Source of the DNA: Armatimonadota bacterium
Lineage (GTDB): Bacteria; Armatimonadota; Hebobacteria; GCA-020354555; CP070648
Length of the DNA: 44,457 bases
Direction: 5' to 3'
NCBI GenBank assembly: GCA_035527535.1
Contig: DATLAK010000090.1
Span: 1-44,457, forward strand
Shown: one piece after another, positions 126-30,064 of the stretch
Numbering within the stretch: the first letter of the stretch is position 1
How the letters are laid out: every line of letters begins with the position of its first letter
Notes under the pieces: model-generated
Told to the model about the DNA's origin: nothing
Seen by the model: only the letters and a program-made list of their open reading frames with translations
The model's database searches: none
Made by a program: the position numbers and the translations under genes

Positions 126-1223
126 ATGACCGACCACTTCAAACAGGACGACGGAATCGAGCGGATACTCAGCGAACAGGAAGACCGCGACAGCACCCCG
201 GTTACCTATGACATTGCAACCTACCCCGCCGACTACACCCTCCAGGGCATCGTCGACTTGTACCGAAATAACAGCATCTTGATCCCCCCCTACCAGCGCA
301 AGTTCGTCTGGTCCATCAAACAGTCAAGTCGTCTAATCGAATCGTTCCTGCTAGGCTTACCGGTCCCAGCCATCTTCCTATACATGGAGCCCGAGAGCAA
401 CAACCGTCTTCTCGTTGTCGACGGCCAACAGAGGCTCCTCAGCATTGTCTACTTCTTCGAAGGCTACTTTGGCCCCCCAGTCGCGCGCAGGCGCAGCATC
501 TTCAGACTCACCGGGTTGAACCCATCTAGCCCTTACTCCGAGAAGACATACTCCGACCTTAGCCAAACTGATGAAGCAACCTACAACAGGTTTAACGCGT
601 CCGTGCTTAGAGCGTTCGTCATCCGCCAGTTGCGCCCGCGCGACAACACCAGCATGTTCCACCTCTTCGAAAGGCTCAACACCGGCGGAACGCAGCTCGT
701 AGGCCAGGAAATCCGCAACTGCATCTATCACGGCCCATTTAACGACATGCTCGTTAAGCTCAACGAGCTGGCCGAATGGCGCCTGATATTCGGCAAAACC
801 CTCCCCGACAAGAGACAGCGCGATATAGAGCTCATATTGCGCTTCCTCGCCCTCCACCATGACGCACACCGCTACGACAGACCAATGAAGGACTTCCTCT
901 CCAATTACATGCGCACCCATCAGTCCGACCAAGACGCATCCCGTGCCTACACCAAACTCTTCGCTAACACAACCACAGCAGTACTGGACAGCCTGGGAGA
1001 ACGTCCCTTCCACATACGGGCCGGCTTGAACGCGGCCGTCTTCGACTCTGTGTACGCTGCTTTCGCTCGCCATGCGACTGCCATTCCACCCGACATCAAG
1101 GGGAGGTACCACCGCCTCGTAAGCGATAAGGAATATCAGGCGGCTGTCAGCAGCGCCACTACCGACCGCGAGGTCGTCACCAAGCGCCTGGCACTCGCCG
1201 ACAAGACTCTCTTCGGAAGGTAG
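126..1223 (+). CDS. DUF262-family protein (GmrSD/ParB-like N-terminal domain)
   Basis: This 365-residue protein carries the DUF262 signature. PPYQRKFVW is at residues 54-62, the conserved DGQQR at 99-103 follows a hydrophobic strand (LLVV), and FERLNTGGTQL is at 181-191. DUF262 is the N-terminal nucleotide-dependent domain of the GmrSD type IV restriction enzymes and of many stand-alone defence-linked proteins, where DGQQR is thought to be catalytic. No C-terminal HNH (DUF1524) motif is visible, so this is a DUF262-only form. The ATG is three bases after an AT-rich stretch and has no strong ribosome site. The next gene (HEPN) starts four bases after its stop, so the two are probably co-transcribed. 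Codon use is visibly less GC-rich than in the core genes downstream, suggesting transfer. The family call is firm; the cellular role is inferred. Confidence 0.85.
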   Translation: MTDHFKQDDGIERILSEQEDRDSTPVTYDIATYPADYTLQGIVDLYRNNSILIPPYQRKFVWSIKQSSRLIESFLLGLPVPAIFLYMEPESNNRLLVVDGQQRLLSIVYFFEGYFGPPVARRRSIFRLTGLNPSSPYSEKTYSDLSQTDEATYNRFNASVLRAFVIRQLRPRDNTSMFHLFERLNTGGTQLVGQEIRNCIYHGPFNDMLVKLNELAEWRLIFGKTLPDKRQRDIELILRFLALHHDAHRYDRPMKDFLSNYMRTHQSDQDASRAYTKLFANTTTAVLDSLGERPFHIRAGLNAAVFDSVYAAFARHATAIPPDIKGRYHRLVSDKEYQAAVSSATTDREVVTKRLALADKTLFGR

Positions 1224-2004: not shown

Positions 2005-4665
2005 GTGACTTCCGATGAGCTGAGAAAGAAGTTCCTCGACTTCTTCGCCGCGCGCGATCATCGCGTGATCGCGCCCGCGCCGCTGATCCCCGGCGACCGG
2101 ACCACGCTTTTCACCATCGCCGGCATGCAGCAGTTCGTGCCCGCCTTCCGCGGCGAGGCGCGTATCCCCGCCCAGCGCGCCGTGACCTGCCAGCGCTGCC
2201 TGCGCATTGACGACCTGGAACAGGTCGGCCGCTCCTCTCGCCACGAGACTCTGTTCGAGATGCTGGGCAACTTCTCGTTCGGCGATTACTTCAAGCGCGA
2301 GGCGATCGTCTGGGCCTGGGAACTGATAACCAGGGACTTCGGCATCCCCGCTGACCGGCTGTGGATCACCGTCTATCCCACCGATGACGAGGCGCGCGGC
2401 CACTGGCGCAAAGACATCGGCCTCCCCGACGAGCGCATCGTTCCCGTGGAGGACAACTGGTGGCCGACCGGCGGCGGCCTGGGTCCCTGCGGGCCGGATT
2501 CGGAGATCATCTACGACATGGGCGAGCAGCATGGCTGCGGCCAGCCCGGCTGCGGCCCGGCGTGTGACTGCGACCGCTGGAACGAGTTCTGGAACCTGGT
2601 CTTCCAGCAGTACAACCGCGACGCCGACGGCAACCTCACGGACCTGCCGACGCAGAACATTGACACCGGCCTGGGCCTGGAGCGCCTGGCCCTGATCATG
2701 CAGGGCAAGAGGACCATCTTCGACACCGACTTGTTTGCTCCGATCATCGCCTACATCTTCGAGATGGCCAACAGTGGGGGCGATCTCTCGCGTGCGGGGA
2801 CACCCACCGGAGAGGGTGTCCCCAGCAGCGCAGCCGAGGCCGCGCGCATCATCGCCGACCACGCGCGCGCGGTCACCTTCATGGTCGCCGACGGGGTGAC
2901 GCCCAGCAATGAAGGGCGCGGATATGTCCTGCGGCGGCTGATCCGTCGGTCGGCGCGCCTGGGGCGGCGGTTGAGCCTGCCGATGCCGTTCTTGAGCCGC
3001 ATCGTGCCGGTGGTGGCACGCCACATGGGCGCGGCCTATCCCGAGCTGGCGGATAAGCAGGATGTGATCGTCAAATTCGTTGACTCCGAGGAGCAGCGCT
3101 TCGACGAGACGCTGGAGCAAGGAAGCCAACTGCTGGAGCGCGCGATCGCACGCGTCAAGGCTGCCGGCGATAGGAGCATCCCGGGCGAGGCCGCGTTCGA
3201 GCTCTACGACACCTACGGCTTCCCCTACGAGCTGACCGAGGAGGTCGCCGCCGAGCAGGGGCTGACGGTGGATGATGAGGGGTTCCGCGCAGCGATGGAG
3301 CGCCAGCGCGAGCGCGCTCGCGCCGCCGCCGGCGGCGCCTTCGCCTACCGCGGCGCCGGGGGCTATGCCGAGCTCGCGGGCAAGACCACCTTCCGCGGCT
3401 ACGAGGAGCTGGAGACGACGGCGCTGGTTCTGCATATCCTCAAGGAGGGCAAGGAGGCCGAGAACGCGCGCGCCGGGGAGCACCTCGAGGTCATTCTCGA
3501 CCACAGCCCGTTCTACGCCGAGTCCGGCGGCCAGGTCGGCGATGCCGGCAGCCTGGGGGCCGAGGGCGTCCGCGCGCGGGTGGAGGATGCGCATCATCCC
3601 GCCGAGGGAGTGCTGGCCCTGCGGGTGGTGGTCGAGGAGGGCGAGCTGGTGCGCGGCGAGCAGGTGCATGCCGTGGTTGACGCGGCGCGCCGGCACGCCA
3701 TCACCCGCGCTCACAGCGCCACCCACCTGCTGCATCACGCCCTGCGGACGGTGCTCGGGCCCCACGCGCTGCAATCCGGATCGCTGGTGGAGCCGGACCG
3801 GCTGCGCTTCGATCTCGCGCATTTCGGCCCCCTGACGCCGGAGGAAATGAGCGGCATCGAGGACCTGGTCAACCGCCAGGTGCTGGAGACGCATCCGGTG
3901 GCGGCCTGCGTGGTACCGATAGCCGAGGCGCGGGAGTCGGGGGCGATGGCGCTGTTCGGGGAGAAGTATGGCGACGAGGTGCGCGTGGTCAGCATCGGCG
4001 ATTTCAGCCGCGAGCTGTGCGGGGGCACGCACGTCACCAACACCGGCGCCATCGGCCTGTTCAAGCTCACTGCCCAGTCCAGCATCGGCGCGGGACTGCG
4101 CCGGGTGGAGGCGGTGACCGGGCTGGCGGCGCTGGACTATTTGCGCGGTCAGGAGGCGCTGCTGGCGCGGGGAGCCGAGCTTCTGCGCTGCGCGCGCGAG
4201 GACCTGCCCGCCCGCATCGAGGGTTTGCAGCGCGACCTGCGCGAGGCGCAGCGGCGCCTGGAGTCCTTGCAGGCGCGCGGGGCCGCCGCCGTCGCCGAGG
4301 AGTTGGTGGGGCGGGCCGAAACCGTGGCGAATGCACAGGTGGTGGCGGAGCGGGTCGCCAACCTGTCGCCGGAGGCGCTGCGCAGCCTGGCCGACGCGGT
4401 GCTGGAGCGACTGGGGCGCGGGGTGGTGGTCCTCGGCGCCGAGGCGAACGGCAAGGTGCTGTTCGTGGGCGAGGTGTCCAAGGAGCTCACCCAGGCCGGG
4501 GTGCACGCCGGCAAGCTCGTGGGCGAGGTGGCGAAGACGGCGGGCGGCGGCGGCGGCGGGCGCCCCGACTTCGCCCAGGCCGGAGGTCGCGACCCGGGGA
4601 AGCTCGACGAGGCCCTGGGGAAGGTCCTAGCCCTGGTACGCCAACAGCTTGCAGGTGGGAAGTAG
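2005..4665 (+). CDS. alaS: Alanyl-tRNA synthetase
   Basis: This is an 886-residue AlaRS that charges tRNA-Ala in the cytoplasm, close to the usual 870-880 residues. The class II aminoacylation core is at the N-terminus (motif RHETLFEMLGNFSFGDYFK, about 79-97). The editing domain has HSATHLLHH and CGGTHV, and the C-terminus has a coiled coil and the conserved glycine-rich GGGGGGRPDFAQAGG segment. The start is GTG, set by GAGGTGA five bases upstream. Residues 264-273, between the catalytic and tRNA-recognition parts, are encoded by a perfect palindrome (2796-2823) and lie in a variable loop just before the conserved IADHARA; they look like a repeat insertion. Genes downstream follow closely, so this is probably the first gene of an operon reaching the PASTA gene. 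Confidence 0.98.
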   Translation: MTSDELRKKFLDFFAARDHRVIAPAPLIPGDRTTLFTIAGMQQFVPAFRGEARIPAQRAVTCQRCLRIDDLEQVGRSSRHETLFEMLGNFSFGDYFKREAIVWAWELITRDFGIPADRLWITVYPTDDEARGHWRKDIGLPDERIVPVEDNWWPTGGGLGPCGPDSEIIYDMGEQHGCGQPGCGPACDCDRWNEFWNLVFQQYNRDADGNLTDLPTQNIDTGLGLERLALIMQGKRTIFDTDLFAPIIAYIFEMANSGGDLSRAGTPTGEGVPSSAAEAARIIADHARAVTFMVADGVTPSNEGRGYVLRRLIRRSARLGRRLSLPMPFLSRIVPVVARHMGAAYPELADKQDVIVKFVDSEEQRFDETLEQGSQLLERAIARVKAAGDRSIPGEAAFELYDTYGFPYELTEEVAAEQGLTVDDEGFRAAMERQRERARAAAGGAFAYRGAGGYAELAGKTTFRGYEELETTALVLHILKEGKEAENARAGEHLEVILDHSPFYAESGGQVGDAGSLGAEGVRARVEDAHHPAEGVLALRVVVEEGELVRGEQVHAVVDAARRHAITRAHSATHLLHHALRTVLGPHALQSGSLVEPDRLRFDLAHFGPLTPEEMSGIEDLVNRQVLETHPVAACVVPIAEARESGAMALFGEKYGDEVRVVSIGDFSRELCGGTHVTNTGAIGLFKLTAQSSIGAGLRRVEAVTGLAALDYLRGQEALLARGAELLRCAREDLPARIEGLQRDLREAQRRLESLQARGAAAVAEELVGRAETVANAQVVAERVANLSPEALRSLADAVLERLGRGVVVLGAEANGKVLFVGEVSKELTQAGVHAGKLVGEVAKTAGGGGGGRPDFAQAGGRDPGKLDEALGKVLALVRQQLAGGK
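2796..2823. repeat. Palindrome inside alaS
   Basis: GGGGACACCC (2796-2805) and GGGTGTCCCC (2814-2823) are a perfect 10-bp inverted repeat with an 8-base loop inside alaS. It is translated in frame as part of a Gly/Pro/Ser/Thr-rich loop (AGTPTGEGVPSS). The GGGGACA ends resemble those of the 65-bp element at 5053-5117. Confidence 0.75.
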
Positions 4666-21313: not shown

Positions 21314-21811
21314 ATGCGGGTGATCATGGAGTGCCCGCGGTGCGGGCGGCAGAACGCTCGCACCTTGCAGCACTGCCAGGCGTGCAACGAGTGGCTGCAC
21401 GGAGCCAGCGCGGTCGTGGGCGTGTGCCCGCAGTGCCACCTGCCGGTGCGCGAGAGCGAATTGGCATGCTCCAACTGCGGCGCTTACCTGGATCCCCGGC
21501 TCGAGCAGGAAGGAGGGCCGCGCCTGCCGCAGGAGAAGCGCCTCGGCCTGCGCGCGCGCAAGGCGATGGCGGAGCCGGGGCGAGCCGCCGCCCGCCTCAT
21601 CTCGGCCGCGTTCCTGTGCCGGGCGGTGGGAGCGGCGGTGGTGGTGGCCTCCCTGGCGCGGGGGATCGTGGCGGTGCAGGAACTGCGCGTCGCCGCCACT
21701 CCCGACGAGGCGATGTTCATAGCTTACGCGGCGGTGTTGTGGGCGCTGGCGGGCATCGTGGGGGTGGGCTTGCTGGTGGCCGGGTTCGTGATCCTGCGCC
21801 CGCCGCGCTGA
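21314..21811 (+). CDS. Double zinc-ribbon membrane protein
   Basis: This 165-residue protein begins with four Cys-x2-Cys pairs: CPRC, CQAC, CPQC and CSNC (residues 7-57). They make two zinc ribbons of the DZR type. A basic stretch follows, then two hydrophobic segments (about 95-115 and 137-161), so the ribbons probably face the cytoplasm. Such proteins are common and mostly uncharacterised. A second in-frame ATG lies at 21326, closer to the first Cys. It follows uppS on the same strand and precedes the presenilin-like gene by about 50 bases, so it may be part of the same transcript. Confidence 0.7.
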   Translation: MRVIMECPRCGRQNARTLQHCQACNEWLHGASAVVGVCPQCHLPVRESELACSNCGAYLDPRLEQEGGPRLPQEKRLGLRARKAMAEPGRAAARLISAAFLCRAVGAAVVVASLARGIVAVQELRVAATPDEAMFIAYAAVLWALAGIVGVGLLVAGFVILRPPR

Positions 21812-21861
21812 CGCGCCTGCGCCGCTGCGCGCAGGCACGGCCGATGGGCCGCCGGAGCAAG

Positions 21862-22740
21862 ATGGAAGTCAACGACCGCACTAAGCCAGAGCCGACCGAC
21901 GCCGCGCGCGGGGAAGTGCGCCGCTGGCGAATGCTGGCGCTGGCGGCGGCCGCCTACCTGGGGCTCGGGCTGCTGGCGGGGCCACGGGCGCTCGCCGCGC
22001 TCAAGCCGGGGCCGCTGCTGGTGGGCCTGGCGGTGGTGGCGGGGATCGCGTACATCCTGATCGCGCTGGCGATGGTGGTGCTGGCGTGCCGACTGCCCCT
22101 GTCATGGAAAGGGCAACTGGGAGCAGGGCTGGCCTTCGCCGCCGCTTTCGGCGCTGCGCGGGCGGCCCATGTTTCGTTGCTGGGCGATCTGTCGCTGGTG
22201 CTGGCGGCGTTGTTCGCGGGCGCGCTGGCCTCGCGCGTGATCCGGGAGCGCAACATGCTGGTGCCGGTGGTGGTGGCGGCGGCTGCGGTGGACACCTGGG
22301 GCGTCTATTGGGGATTTGTGGCGGAGATCGGCAGACGGGCGCCGGAGGTGGTCAAGCAGTTCAGCGCCGCCGTGCCCGGGGCGGCGGCTGCGGAACTGCC
22401 GGTGCCGCTGCTCAGCTCGGTGGGCGCCGGCGACTTCCTGTTCATGGCGCTGTTCGTGGCCGCGGTGTGGCGGCTGGGAATGAATCTGCGCGGCACGCTG
22501 TGGGCGCTGTTCGGGGTTTACCTGGTGGTGCCGGCGGCTTTCGCCGCCGTCTCGGCGGTGACCGCGTCAGAGGCGCCGGCGCTGCCGGGGCTGGTGTTCG
22601 TGGGATTCGCGACGGCGGCGGCCAACTGGCGGCATTTCCACTTCTCGCGCGCGGAGAGGTTCGCGCTGCTGTACGCGGCGATGGCGTTGACGGCGCTCAT
22701 CCTGGCGGCGTGGGGGGTGAAGCGGGCGCTGGGAGGCTGA
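21862..22740 (+). CDS. Polytopic membrane protein with presenilin-type GxGD protease motifs
   Basis: This 292-residue protein has about nine hydrophobic segments. Three motifs of presenilin/signal-peptide-peptidase (A22, GxGD) proteases appear in the right order. Asp144 lies in a membrane segment (AVDTWGVYWG, recalling YD-x3-VY of archaeal homologues). G188-A-G-D191 is in the next segment, followed by FLFMALFV. P239-A-L-P242 comes two segments later. The sequence after Asp144 (VYWGFVAEIGRR) also resembles the post-Asp region of archaeal members. These proteases use two intramembrane aspartates to cut transmembrane helices. The ATG at 21862 has GGAG five bases upstream; an ATG six codons earlier is possible. 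The motifs are seen; the protease assignment is inference, since Ala-rich membrane sequence could mimic them. Confidence 0.55.
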   Translation: MEVNDRTKPEPTDAARGEVRRWRMLALAAAAYLGLGLLAGPRALAALKPGPLLVGLAVVAGIAYILIALAMVVLACRLPLSWKGQLGAGLAFAAAFGAARAAHVSLLGDLSLVLAALFAGALASRVIRERNMLVPVVVAAAAVDTWGVYWGFVAEIGRRAPEVVKQFSAAVPGAAAAELPVPLLSSVGAGDFLFMALFVAAVWRLGMNLRGTLWALFGVYLVVPAAFAAVSAVTASEAPALPGLVFVGFATAAANWRHFHFSRAERFALLYAAMALTALILAAWGVKRALGG

Positions 22741-22920: not shown

Positions 22921-25416
<2,496 letters not shown>

Positions 25417-25589: not shown

Positions 25590-25699
25590 GCTCCATGCAT
25601 TTGCGGTTAGATGTGGCACCGGCGCCCCGCCCGAGCTTTGCGCGCCACGGCCCGCAGGGCGACGGCGGGACGGACCTGCCACACAGGAGCCTTCCACCA

Positions 25700-28600
25700 G
25701 TGAGCGTTAGCCCTTCGCCGCAATCCGAGGGATTGGACCTCGGCGTTGATCTCGGCTCGGTGAGCGTCAAGGCAGCCCTGCTCGACGCCGCCGGCAACAT
25801 CGTCGAACACCACTATCGCCGCCACCACGGGCAACCCCTGCGCGCCGCCCGCGACCTGCTGGCGGACCTGCTGGAGCGCACGCCCGCCGACCGCATCGGC
25901 GTGGTCGCGGTCACCGGCGCCGGCGGCAAGCTGCTGGCGGAGGTGCTGGAGGCCCATCTCGTCAACGAGGTCGTGGCCCAGGCGGCGGCCGCCGCCGCGC
26001 TGCACCCAGACGCCCGCACCATCATCGAGATCGGCGGCGAGGACTCGAAGCTGCTGTTCCTCAAGCCCGACGAGGGTGGGGCAGAGCCTGTCCTGAGCTT
26101 GTCGAAGGGCGTCCCGCCTGCCAATGACTTCGCAGCCGAGACGGCTGCGCCACCTATCGCCGTGGCCGATTTCGCCATGAACACCATCTGCGCCGCCGGC
26201 ACGGGATCGTTCCTGGATCAGCAGGCCCACCGCCTGGGGCTGTCCATCGAGCAGTTCGGCGAGCTCGCCCTCAAGTCCGAGCATCCCCCGCGGCTGGCCG
26301 GCCGCTGCAGCGTCTTCGCCAAGTCCGACATGATCCACCTCCAGCAGAAGGCCACGCCGTCGCATGACATCGTCGCCGGGCTGTGCTTCGCCATGGCGCG
26401 CAACTTCAAGAGCACCGTCGGCTCCGCCCGCACCCTCGAACCGCCGGTCTATTTCCACGGGGGGGTGGCCGCCAACCCCGGCATCGTGCGCGCCTTCCAC
26501 GAGGTGCTGGCGCTGGGGGCGGATGACCTGCGCGTGCCCGAGCGCTTCGCGGTCATGGGCGCCATCGGCGCGGTCTTCGCCGCGCGCCGGCAGGGGGTCG
26601 CCGCGGGTGGCTGGGCGGGGCTGGAGCGCCTCAACGCCTTCCTCGACACCCGCGGGGAGCGCCCGGCGGCGGCGACCATGGAGGCCCTGGGGCCGGCGCT
26701 GGGGATGGTCACCTATCATCAGGCGGAGATGGCTGCGCCGCCCGCCCCCGGCGCGCGCGCTTGCCCTGAGGGAAATCGAAGGGTCCCCGCCTACCTGGGG
26801 GTGGACGTCGGCTCCATCAGCACCAACCTGGTGGTGCTCGACGCACAGCGGCGTGTGCTCGCCAAACGCTACCTGATGACGGCGGGCGCGCCCATCGAGG
26901 CGGTGCGCCGCGGCCTGCGCGAGATCGGGGAGGAGGTGGGCGATTGCGTTGACATTCGCGGCGCGTCCACCACCGGCTCCGGGCGCTACCTGATCGGCGA
27001 CTTCATCGGCGCCGATGTCGTCAAGAATGAGATCACCGCCCAGGCGCGCGGCGCGGTCGCGGCCGACCCGCGAGTGGATACCATCTTCGAGATCGGCGGC
27101 CAGGACTCGAAGTACATCTCCCTCGACGGCGGCGCGATCGTGGACTTCGAGATGAACAAGGTCTGCGCCGCCGGCACCGGCTCGTTTCTCGAGGAGCAAG
27201 CGGAGAAGCTGGGCATCAGCATCAAGCAGCAGTTCGAAGAGTTGGCGCTGGCCGCCGCCGCCCCCGCCAACCTGGGCGAGCGCTGCACGGTCTTCATGGA
27301 ATCGGAGCTGGTGCGCCACCAGCAGGCGGGCATCCCCACCGACGACCTGGTGGCGGGGCTGAGCTACTCCATCGTCCATAACTACCTCAACCGCGTGGTG
27401 GCGGGCAAGCGCGTGGGCGATCACATCTTCTTCCAGGGCGGGGTCGCCTACAACCAGGGAGTGGCCGCCGCCTTCGCCCGCGTCACCGGCAAGCACATCA
27501 CCGTCCCCGCCCACCACGAGGTCACCGGCGCCATCGGCTGCGCGCTGCTGGCGATGGAGGCCGATGCCGGCGTTGGCAGCAAGTTCAAGGGCTTCGACCT
27601 GTCCGAGCGCAGCTACGAGGTGCGTTCCTTCGAGTGCAAGGACTGCCCCAACCGCTGCGAGGTCAACGTGGTGACGGTCGCGGGCGAGCGCGCGCGCTTC
27701 TACGGCAGCCGCTGCGAGAAGTACGACGTCGAGCGCCGCTCGGGGCGCGGCGACGAGCTGCCCGACCTCTTCGCCGAGCGCACCGAGCTGCTGCTCAACG
27801 CCTACCAACCGAAGGCGGAGCTGCCGGCGAACGCCCCCCGCGTCGGCGTCCCCCGCAGCCTGCTCTTCCACGAGCTGTTCCCGCTGTGGCACGCGTTCTT
27901 CACCGAGCTCGGCTGCCGCGTCGTCACCTCCGAAGCGACCAACAAGCGCATCATCCACCGCGGCGCCGAGGGCTCGGTGGTCGAGACCTGTTTCCCCATG
28001 AAGGTCGCCCTCGGCCACGTCATGGACCTGCTCGACCAGGACCTGGACTACCTGTTCCTGCCCAGCGTCATCAACCTCCCGCGCCCCGAGGACGGCGTCA
28101 CCGACAGCTTTGTCTGCCCCTACATCCAGAGCTTCCCCTACACCGTCAAGTCGGCGGTCAACCCCGAGGCCGCCGGGGTGAAGCTGCTGGCGCCGGTGCT
28201 CTACATGTACCTCGGCGCCGACCACCTGCTGCGCGTGCTGGGGGGCATGGCCGCGCGGTACCTGGGCAAGGGCCGCGAGGCGATCATGGGCGCGCTCAAC
28301 GCCGGGCTGGTCGCGTGGGACAACTTCCAGGACGCCTGCCGCCGGCGCGGGGAGGAGATCCTCGCCGACCTTGCGCCCGACGACAAGGCAGTGGTCATCA
28401 TCAGCCGCTCCTACAACGGCTGCGATCCCGGCGCCAACCTCGAGCTGCCGCGCAAGCTGCGCGACCTCGGCATCCTGCCCGTGCCCATGGACTTCCTGCC
28501 GCTGGAGACGGTGCAGCTCGCCGCGGAGTGGCCCAACATGTACTGGCGCTACGGGCAGAAGATCCTCGCCGCCGCCGAGCTCGTCGCCAACGACCCGCGC

Positions 28601-30064
28601 TTGACCTCGGTCTATCTCACCAACTTCGGCTGCGGGCCGGACTCGTTCATCACGCGGTTTTTCCGCCAGCGCATGGGCGACAAGCCCTACCTGCAGATCG
28701 AGGTGGACGAGCACAGCGCCGACGCCGGCATGATCACCCGCTGCGAGGCCTTCCTCGACAGCATCGCCGCCGCCGACGGCCGCGAGCTGGCTACCGGCGC
28801 GCGCCTGCGCACCCTCACCATCACCCCCGGCTCCAAGCGCACCCTGCTCGTGCCCTACATGTCGGACCACGCCTTCGGGTTGGCGGCGGCGATGGAGGCC
28901 AGCGGCATGTCCGCCCGGGTCATGGCGGAGAGCGACGCCGAGACCCTGTTCTGGGGGCGCCAGCACACCTCGGGCAAGGAATGCTACCCCTGCATCGTCA
29001 CCACCGGCGACATGGTCAAGTACGCGATGCGTCCCGATTTCGACCGCGACCGGTACGCGTTCTTCATGGGCGGCTCGGGCGGGCCCTGCCGCTTCGGCCA
29101 GTACAGCGCCCTGCAGCGCATGGTGCTCGACGACATCGGCTACGCCGACGTTCCCATCTACGCCCCCAACCAGGCCGCCAGCTTCTACAACGACATGGGG
29201 ATGCTGGGGCGCAAGTTCCTGCGCGCGGCGTGGCAGGCCATCGTCGCCGTGGACCTGCTGTCCAAGGCACTGCATGAAACCCGCCCCTACGAAGTCGAGC
29301 CCGGCGCCACCCGTTCGGCAAGCTCAGGGCAGGCCGAGCGCGTTTATCGGCATTACCTGGAATGCGTCTGCGAGGCGGTGCGCGGCGACCGGCCGCTGCC
29401 GCCGGTGCTGGCGCAGGCGCGGCGCGCGTTCGAGACGGTGGCGGTGGACCGCTCCCAGCCGCGGCCGGTGATCGGGGTGGTGGGCGAGATCTTCGTGCGC
29501 GCCAACCGCTTCAGCAACAACCACCTGGTGGAGCAGGTCGAGGCGCTGGGGGGCGAGGTGTGGATGGCGCCGGTCTATGAGTGGTTCCTCTACCGCAACT
29601 TCCGCCGCGCGATGCGCAGTTGGCTCGACAACGACCTCAAGCTGTGGACCACCAACCTGGTCAAGGACTGGGTGATGCGCCACGACGAGCACGCGCTGGT
29701 GCGCTCCTTCCACGGGTATCTGCGCAACGCGGACGAGCCGCCGACGCGCGACGTGCTGGGGCTGAGCGGCCCTTACCTCCACCGCAGCTTCGAGGGGGAA
29801 GCGGTGCTGACCGTGGGCAAGGCGCTGGATTTCGTCCGCAAGGGCGCGGCCGGCATCATCAGCACCATGCCCTTCACCTGCATGCCGGGCACCATCGCCC
29901 ACGCCGTCATCAAGCGCGTCAAGGACGAGGAGGGCGGCTTCCCCTTCCTCAACCTGGTCTATGACGGCACCGAGCAGGCCAGCGAAGATACCCGCATCGA
30001 GGCCTTCATGTACCAGGCGCGGGAATACGCACGGCGCACCGGCGGGGTGAAGGCAGGGCGCTGA
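25700..30064 (+). CDS. Giant double-ATPase 2-hydroxyacyl-CoA dehydratase activase-type protein (BadF/HgdC + DUF2229)
   Basis: This is a 1454-residue fusion. ATPase copy 1 runs from GVDLGSVSVK (15-24) to about 330, and copy 2 from GVDVGSIST (about 367) to about 630. Each has the Cys that holds the [4Fe-4S] cluster in CAAGTGSF (Cys164, Cys489). A DUF2229-type region follows, starting with ECKDCPNRCEV (about 643), then Cys-rich TSGKECYPCIVTTGDM, GGSGGPCRFGQY and a dehydratase-like end with MPFTCMPGT. Activases of this family drive an electron into 2-hydroxyacyl-CoA dehydratases or benzoyl-CoA reductases using ATP. The fused form is widespread, but its substrate is unknown, and no dehydratase genes are nearby. 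The GTG start has AGGAG ten bases upstream and lies after a promoter. Three repeat-derived inserts are present. Confidence 0.9.
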   Translation: MSVSPSPQSEGLDLGVDLGSVSVKAALLDAAGNIVEHHYRRHHGQPLRAARDLLADLLERTPADRIGVVAVTGAGGKLLAEVLEAHLVNEVVAQAAAAAALHPDARTIIEIGGEDSKLLFLKPDEGGAEPVLSLSKGVPPANDFAAETAAPPIAVADFAMNTICAAGTGSFLDQQAHRLGLSIEQFGELALKSEHPPRLAGRCSVFAKSDMIHLQQKATPSHDIVAGLCFAMARNFKSTVGSARTLEPPVYFHGGVAANPGIVRAFHEVLALGADDLRVPERFAVMGAIGAVFAARRQGVAAGGWAGLERLNAFLDTRGERPAAATMEALGPALGMVTYHQAEMAAPPAPGARACPEGNRRVPAYLGVDVGSISTNLVVLDAQRRVLAKRYLMTAGAPIEAVRRGLREIGEEVGDCVDIRGASTTGSGRYLIGDFIGADVVKNEITAQARGAVAADPRVDTIFEIGGQDSKYISLDGGAIVDFEMNKVCAAGTGSFLEEQAEKLGISIKQQFEELALAAAAPANLGERCTVFMESELVRHQQAGIPTDDLVAGLSYSIVHNYLNRVVAGKRVGDHIFFQGGVAYNQGVAAAFARVTGKHITVPAHHEVTGAIGCALLAMEADAGVGSKFKGFDLSERSYEVRSFECKDCPNRCEVNVVTVAGERARFYGSRCEKYDVERRSGRGDELPDLFAERTELLLNAYQPKAELPANAPRVGVPRSLLFHELFPLWHAFFTELGCRVVTSEATNKRIIHRGAEGSVVETCFPMKVALGHVMDLLDQDLDYLFLPSVINLPRPEDGVTDSFVCPYIQSFPYTVKSAVNPEAAGVKLLAPVLYMYLGADHLLRVLGGMAARYLGKGREAIMGALNAGLVAWDNFQDACRRRGEEILADLAPDDKAVVIISRSYNGCDPGANLELPRKLRDLGILPVPMDFLPLETVQLAAEWPNMYWRYGQKILAAAELVANDPRLTSVYLTNFGCGPDSFITRFFRQRMGDKPYLQIEVDEHSADAGMITRCEAFLDSIAAADGRELATGARLRTLTITPGSKRTLLVPYMSDHAFGLAAAMEASGMSARVMAESDAETLFWGRQHTSGKECYPCIVTTGDMVKYAMRPDFDRDRYAFFMGGSGGPCRFGQYSALQRMVLDDIGYADVPIYAPNQAASFYNDMGMLGRKFLRAAWQAIVAVDLLSKALHETRPYEVEPGATRSASSGQAERVYRHYLECVCEAVRGDRPLPPVLAQARRAFETVAVDRSQPRPVIGVVGEIFVRANRFSNNHLVEQVEALGGEVWMAPVYEWFLYRNFRRAMRSWLDNDLKLWTTNLVKDWVMRHDEHALVRSFHGYLRNADEPPTRDVLGLSGPYLHRSFEGEAVLTVGKALDFVRKGAAGIISTMPFTCMPGTIAHAVIKRVKDEEGGFPFLNLVYDGTEQASEDTRIEAFMYQAREYARRTGGVKAGR
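26086..26149. repeat. Repeat-derived insert in ATPase copy 1 of the activase
   Basis: GCCTGTCCTGAGCTTGTCGA and the bases after it (26086-26110) are an inverted copy of the dispersed CTTCGAC...CTCAGGGCAGGC repeat. A palindrome, CGCAGCC-GAGAC-GGCTGCG (26131-26149), follows. Translated, they make most of a loop of about 30 residues that ATPase copy 2 lacks at the matching point, between GGEDSK and the NTICAAG motif. Confidence 0.8.
26761..26785. repeat. Diverged dispersed repeat in the linker of the activase
   Basis: TTGCCCTGAGGGAAATCGAAGGGTC-like sequence resembles the CTCAGGGCAGG/CTTCGA repeat in inverted orientation. It lies exactly between the two ATPase copies and is translated as part of a Pro/Ala/Arg-rich linker. 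Confidence 0.45.
29311..29335. repeat. Dispersed repeat in the C-terminal part of the activase
   Basis: CCGTTCGGCAAGCTCAGGGC (29311-29330) with AGGCC after it is a close copy of the repeats at 1938-1962 and 22811-22834. It is translated as the SASSGQAER segment between two conserved blocks, so it is tolerated as a loop insertion. Confidence 0.7.

Follow-up and report, generated by a model that had tools for sequence, protein, structure and literature searches.

The window analysed here, a 44,457-nucleotide stretch of DNA from an Armatimonadota bacterium (contig DATLAK010000090.1, assembly GCA_035527535.1), carries an open reading frame (positions 21862..22740, + strand; ATG at 21862, stop at 22740, with an in-frame ATG at 21844 as an alternative start) that encodes a strongly hydrophobic protein of 292 residues, rich in Ala, Val and Leu. 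We consider it likely that this gene encodes an intramembrane aspartyl protease, a homologue of presenilin and signal peptide peptidase (SPP) from a divergent Armatimonadota branch, predicted to have an SPP-like orientation and to act on substrates with an inside N-terminus (N-in). Presenilin is a protein-cutting enzyme linked to Alzheimer's disease. Homology to the presenilin/SPP superfamily is very probable, and the profile searches, the modelled fold and the register of the residues together support this superfamily and nothing else. These three lines of evidence favour an earlier sequence-only reading, which had put the gene forward as a candidate bacterial presenilin-like GxGD protease.

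Three motifs follow one another along the open reading frame in the order proposed by the sequence-only reading: VD144TWGVY, GAGD (188-191) and PALP (239-242). Residue conservation was computed over a sample of 79 diverse homologues, in which D144, G188, D191 and E265 are each invariant (79/79) and F194 and G120 are each kept in 78. The motifs are therefore not a matter of chance. The earlier proposal had been staked on the two Asp residues, both of which are present in every homologue, and had expected the same invariance of G190 and P239. Position 190 is Gly in 61 homologues and Ala in 18, with nothing else observed, and P239 is poorly kept (24/79). The conserved proline is instead P242 (76/79), with Ala in its place in three homologues; P242, and not P239, also falls on the presenilin PAL proline by structural register. 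L244 is kept in 76 of the 79, most homologues having PAL or PGL at this site.

Presented alone, the 292-residue protein gives no useful Pfam or NCBIfam family and no useful sequence match in the PDB. A profile built from 34 sequences had a sole PDB match at E<=10, human presenilin-1 (PSEN1; E 0.0056), in an alignment that pairs the two GxGD motifs and the two PAL motifs. The 79-sequence core profile, searched against 177,635 PDB sequences, returned eight matches at E<=10, all of them PSEN1, PSEN2 or SPPL2A (best E 1.9e-4), again with GxGD over GxGD and PAL over PAL; a weaker segment from this search placed D144 over PSEN1 D257 and the next Gly over Gly. When the 79 members were compared singly with Pfam, the two commonest families were Presenilin (9/79) and A22B (6/79), all of these matches being weak. 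A single-sequence PDB search with the core of a divergent member (locus L030) gave no relevant match, and a 29-residue PSEN1 fragment chosen by hand, which aligned D144 with D257 at negligible probability, is not used as evidence.

The profile results bear on whether the protein could be an A24-type GxGD enzyme, such as a prepilin peptidase or FlaK, rather than a presenilin-type one. Enzymes of the A24 group likewise have two Asp residues and a GxGD motif and are common in bacteria; however, the profile and fold matches are of presenilin type, a PAL motif two segments further on is not an A24 feature, and the Pfam and PDB profile scans gave no A24 match. We consider the A24 assignment highly improbable and have set it aside.

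The AlphaFold model of the full protein (predicted local distance difference test 91.4, predicted template modelling score 0.87) is that of a membrane protein with about nine helices as assigned by DSSP, in which four helices (A to D) precede the D144 helix and one additional helix follows the PAL helix. The order of its elements is that of presenilin, from the helix that bears D144 through short helices and a beta pair to the GxGD-bearing helix, then one more helix and the PAL helix. In structural comparisons of the full model with VIA-align the top 18 rows were all PSEN1, PSEN2, SPPL2a or PSH, with Z from 12.9 to 8.5, and the best unrelated row had a Z of 7.7; the top match (Z 12.9) had an rmsd (root mean square deviation) of 3.4 over 189 aligned residues. 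Comparison with archaeal PSH (PDB 4hyg) gave a Z of 10.0, and the model agrees with the TM6-TM7-TM9-like presenilin core (TM, transmembrane helix) that the sequence-only reading had proposed to look for among A22 and PSH structures. In a separate model of the core (residues 127-262), 12 presenilin chains lead with Z from 9.2 to 5.7, the next row having a Z of 3.4. The core superimposes on PSEN2 with residues 2..131 on 247..429 (2.2 Å, 80 aligned, Z 9.2). This alignment, from whose end points the inner register was inferred, implies that D144 of the model lies on PSEN2 D263 and P242 on P414; by this register D144 and D191 would both land on the presenilin catalytic pair, D263 and D366 in PSEN2.

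An unrelated membrane helix bundle bearing the motifs by coincidence would be consistent with the Ala/Val/Leu-rich composition of the protein and with the weak Foldseek E-values described below. The phylum-wide invariance of the motifs, the profile matches exclusively to presenilin and SPP proteins, and the agreeing residue register leave such a coincidence with almost no credence, and we have set it aside.

The predicted parts of the presenilin-like protein, taken from the AlphaFold model and DSSP, all lie on the + strand. Helix A (residues 13-38; 21898..21975) is N-terminal of the presenilin-aligned part, which begins at residue 53 at the earliest (>=53) in the top VIA-align rows; helices B, C and D (51-76, 82-101 and 105-126; 22012..22239) precede the catalytic pair in the model and its VIA-align superpositions. 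The two Asp residues sit in adjacent helices, 130-149 and 189-204. The first of these, the TM6-like helix E (22249..22308), bears D144 (22291..22293), the first predicted catalytic Asp, whose equivalence to PSEN2 D263 is suggested by conservation, structural register and a weak hidden Markov model (HMM) alignment near PSEN1 D257. The predicted TM6-TM7 loop (22315..22425) contains short helices (152-159 and 161-166) and beta strands (168-170 and 186-188), which recall TM6a of presenilin and the beta pair preceding its GxGD. The GxGD motif (G188-A-G190-D191; 22423..22434), identified by conservation and HMM alignment to the PSEN sequence GLGDF.F, includes the second predicted catalytic Asp, D191, at the position of PSEN1 D385 and PSEN2 D366. 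The TM7-like helix F (189-204) and TM8-like helix G (209-234) together span 22426..22563. Conservation, register on PSEN2 P414 and alignment with PAL identify the PAL-like motif P242-G-L244 (22585..22593), which overlaps the first residues of the TM9-like helix H (243-254; 22588..22623). In the top VIA-align rows the presenilin alignment stops at residues 261-263; beyond it lies the additional C-terminal helix I (263-291; 22648..22734), which carries the invariant E265.

Variants of this architecture were seen at a few loci. Homologues at loci L014 and L030 (family f2, same class) have around 190 more C-terminal residues past the last helix, predicted to be extracellular. At locus L036 (genome G075) the gene is a tandem duplicate (1450-2400 and 2425-3330), and IAAL replaces the PAL proline in the first copy. 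At locus L084 (G034) the gene is spread over two reading frames, for which a frameshift or an error of assembly may be responsible.

Lysine plus arginine content is higher in the predicted inner loops than in the outer loops, with the N-terminus inside, in 78 of the 79 homologues. Given this positive-inside bias, the TM6-TM7 and PAL loops are predicted to lie on the outer side, an arrangement that matches SPP and is the reverse of presenilin. Enzymes of the SPP type accept type II (N-in) segments (PMC7366577; PMC2947513), and an SPP-like orientation would therefore lead us to expect N-in (type II) transmembrane segments as substrates. From these computed features we infer a mechanism of catalysis in which D144, on the TM6-like helix, and D191, in the GxGD of the TM7-like helix, would form the catalytic pair, and P242-x-L244, where the TM9-like helix starts, would shape the active site. 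Candidate substrates would be the signal peptides that remain once signal peptidase has acted, and also signal anchors and tail-anchored proteins; the enzyme probably works without a partner complex.

Several observations weigh against this assignment. No match to Pfam PF01080 or PF06550 rose above the cut-off in 151 Armatimonadota genomes; the sub-threshold matches are mostly noise, with some of those to PF01080 lying on the GxGD region of the family. The tyrosine of the YD motif was not found before the first Asp, residue 143 being Val, Ile or Ala with Tyr in one homologue of the 79. Foldseek ranked gamma-secretase first yet weakly (E 0.37, prob 0.91), and a Z of about 13 is also possible for helical bundles generally; the case leans on VIA-align, the profile searches and conservation. 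SppA and S2P enzymes encoded in the same genome could fill the proposed role, and that role therefore need not be unique to this protease. Because both the YD motif and the Pfam cut-offs failed, we regard the protein as belonging to a divergent bacterial branch rather than as a canonical A22 member.

The missing YD tyrosine, together with GxAD in place of GxGD in 18 of the 79 homologues and the P242A substitution in 3/79, would also fit a homologous fold that has given up protease activity and now works in the membrane as a channel, a scaffold or a chaperone. We judge this improbable, since retention of both Asp residues in all 79 homologues across the phylum would be unexpected had catalysis gone.

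The gene is near-universal in Armatimonadota, and is not a rarity. A single-sequence search found homologues in 246 of 291 Armatimonadota genomes, and the wide-alignment profile A1 found them in 268 of the 291, in 186 of 194 good genomes and in 152 of 156 genera, mostly as a single copy. No homologue was found in the nearly complete genomes G026, G039, G052 (genus g24), G173 and G174, which suggests loss; in G173 and G174, both of 1.5 Mb, the loss is perhaps tied to genome reduction. A scan of 84,980 species returned named relatives labelled Armatimonadetes or Armatimonadota, Abditibacteriales, WS1, Hebobacteria or Zipacnadum, with a few Bacillota or uncultured entries; the scan used one short pattern and does not prove that other phyla lack the gene. 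No relatives were found in a scan of viral contigs or by tblastn against plasmids.

Upstream of the gene in the window are uppS and, directly before the gene, a double-zinc-ribbon protein for which membrane segments are predicted (21314-21811), as had been noted from the sequence; leuS (22921..25416, + strand) lies downstream. It is leuS, and not uppS, that is the usual neighbour of the family: it lies downstream on the same strand, usually adjoining, in 22 of 60 sampled loci, and the gap between the two genes, with a median of 28 bp, was measured at 38 loci, which include named ones (some of these being the sampled genomes). The zinc-ribbon neighbour was considered as a partner and set aside, because in the loci checked a zinc-ribbon gene stands beside the family only in the sister genus. 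A MerR regulator and a glycosyltransferase recur in one genome family (7 loci). No neighbour in the sampled loci points to a substrate. Elsewhere in the window, a 1489-residue open reading frame (25595-30064) resembles, by eye only, a 2-hydroxyglutaryl-CoA dehydratase activator/component.

The neighbourhoods offer some encouragement for a different role, in which a presenilin-fold enzyme dedicated to regulated intramembrane proteolysis would release a cytosolic or outer signal on envelope stress rather than scavenge signal peptides. A divergent ANTAR response regulator is recurrent upstream (16/60 loci), as is a GAF histidine kinase (15/60), and in one locus a trypsin/PDZ protease follows the gene. 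The near-universality of the gene, its shifting neighbourhoods and its frequent operon-like linkage to leuS nevertheless look more like housekeeping, and no sigma or anti-sigma gene is prominent among the few neighbours scanned. We therefore regard a dedicated regulatory protease as possible and rather doubtful, and prefer an SPP-like protease acting on N-in segments.

The sequence-only reading had also remarked that such proteases are little described in bacteria. Our searches, which covered the open literature and so are not proof of novelty, found no description of a bacterial presenilin/SPP-type protease. The described members of the superfamily are archaeal and eukaryotic; the term 'bacterial presenilin homologue' is used of PSH in one review, apparently for the archaeal protein. 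On balance we lean towards the view that nearly all Armatimonadota carry a third branch of this superfamily, beside the eukaryotic and archaeal branches, consisting of a minimal, partner-free, SPP-oriented protease derived from the ancestor of the phylum. If this is true, presenilin/SPP proteases are old in bacteria and are not confined to archaea and eukaryotes, and a phylum-wide bacterial branch bears on the origin of the presenilin protease fold. The family, overlooked by current protein-family databases, would give structural and mechanistic studies of the presenilin active site a large set of small homologues from bacteria. It also suggests a bacterial route, so far unrecognised, for signal-peptide clearance or envelope regulation.

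Comparison with known systems places the Armatimonadota family among the GxGD aspartyl membrane proteases. With the type IV prepilin peptidases and FlaK (A24) it shares this general character; in contrast to them it has a PAL-like motif, which A24 enzymes do not have, and it shows no sequence match to them. Like archaeal PSH/MCMJR1 (PF06550; PDB 4hyg), it is prokaryotic, of near-equal size, predicted to adopt the presenilin fold and has no known partner. PSH has the YD motif and no clear PAL motif (PMC2947513), whereas the Armatimonadota family shows the reverse, with YD absent and a PAL-like motif present. The resemblance to presenilin-1 and presenilin-2 (the catalytic subunit of gamma-secretase, MEROPS A22A) comprises two Asp residues on neighbouring helices, GxGDF.F, a PAL-type motif two helices on, the predicted TM6-TM9 core fold and a beta strand directly before GxGD. 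The Armatimonadota protein differs from presenilin in its predicted reverse membrane orientation, in the absence of Tyr before the first Asp, in its modelled helix count, which is lower by two ahead of TM6, in its additional N- and C-terminal helices, and in that gamma-secretase partners are not expected for it. From SPP and SPPL proteins (MEROPS A22B) it is set apart by its bacterial origin, the missing YD motif, a different helix count and very low sequence similarity; it shares with them the catalytic motifs, a short TM6-TM7 loop, the predicted orientation of the catalytic helices and, probably, function as a single subunit.
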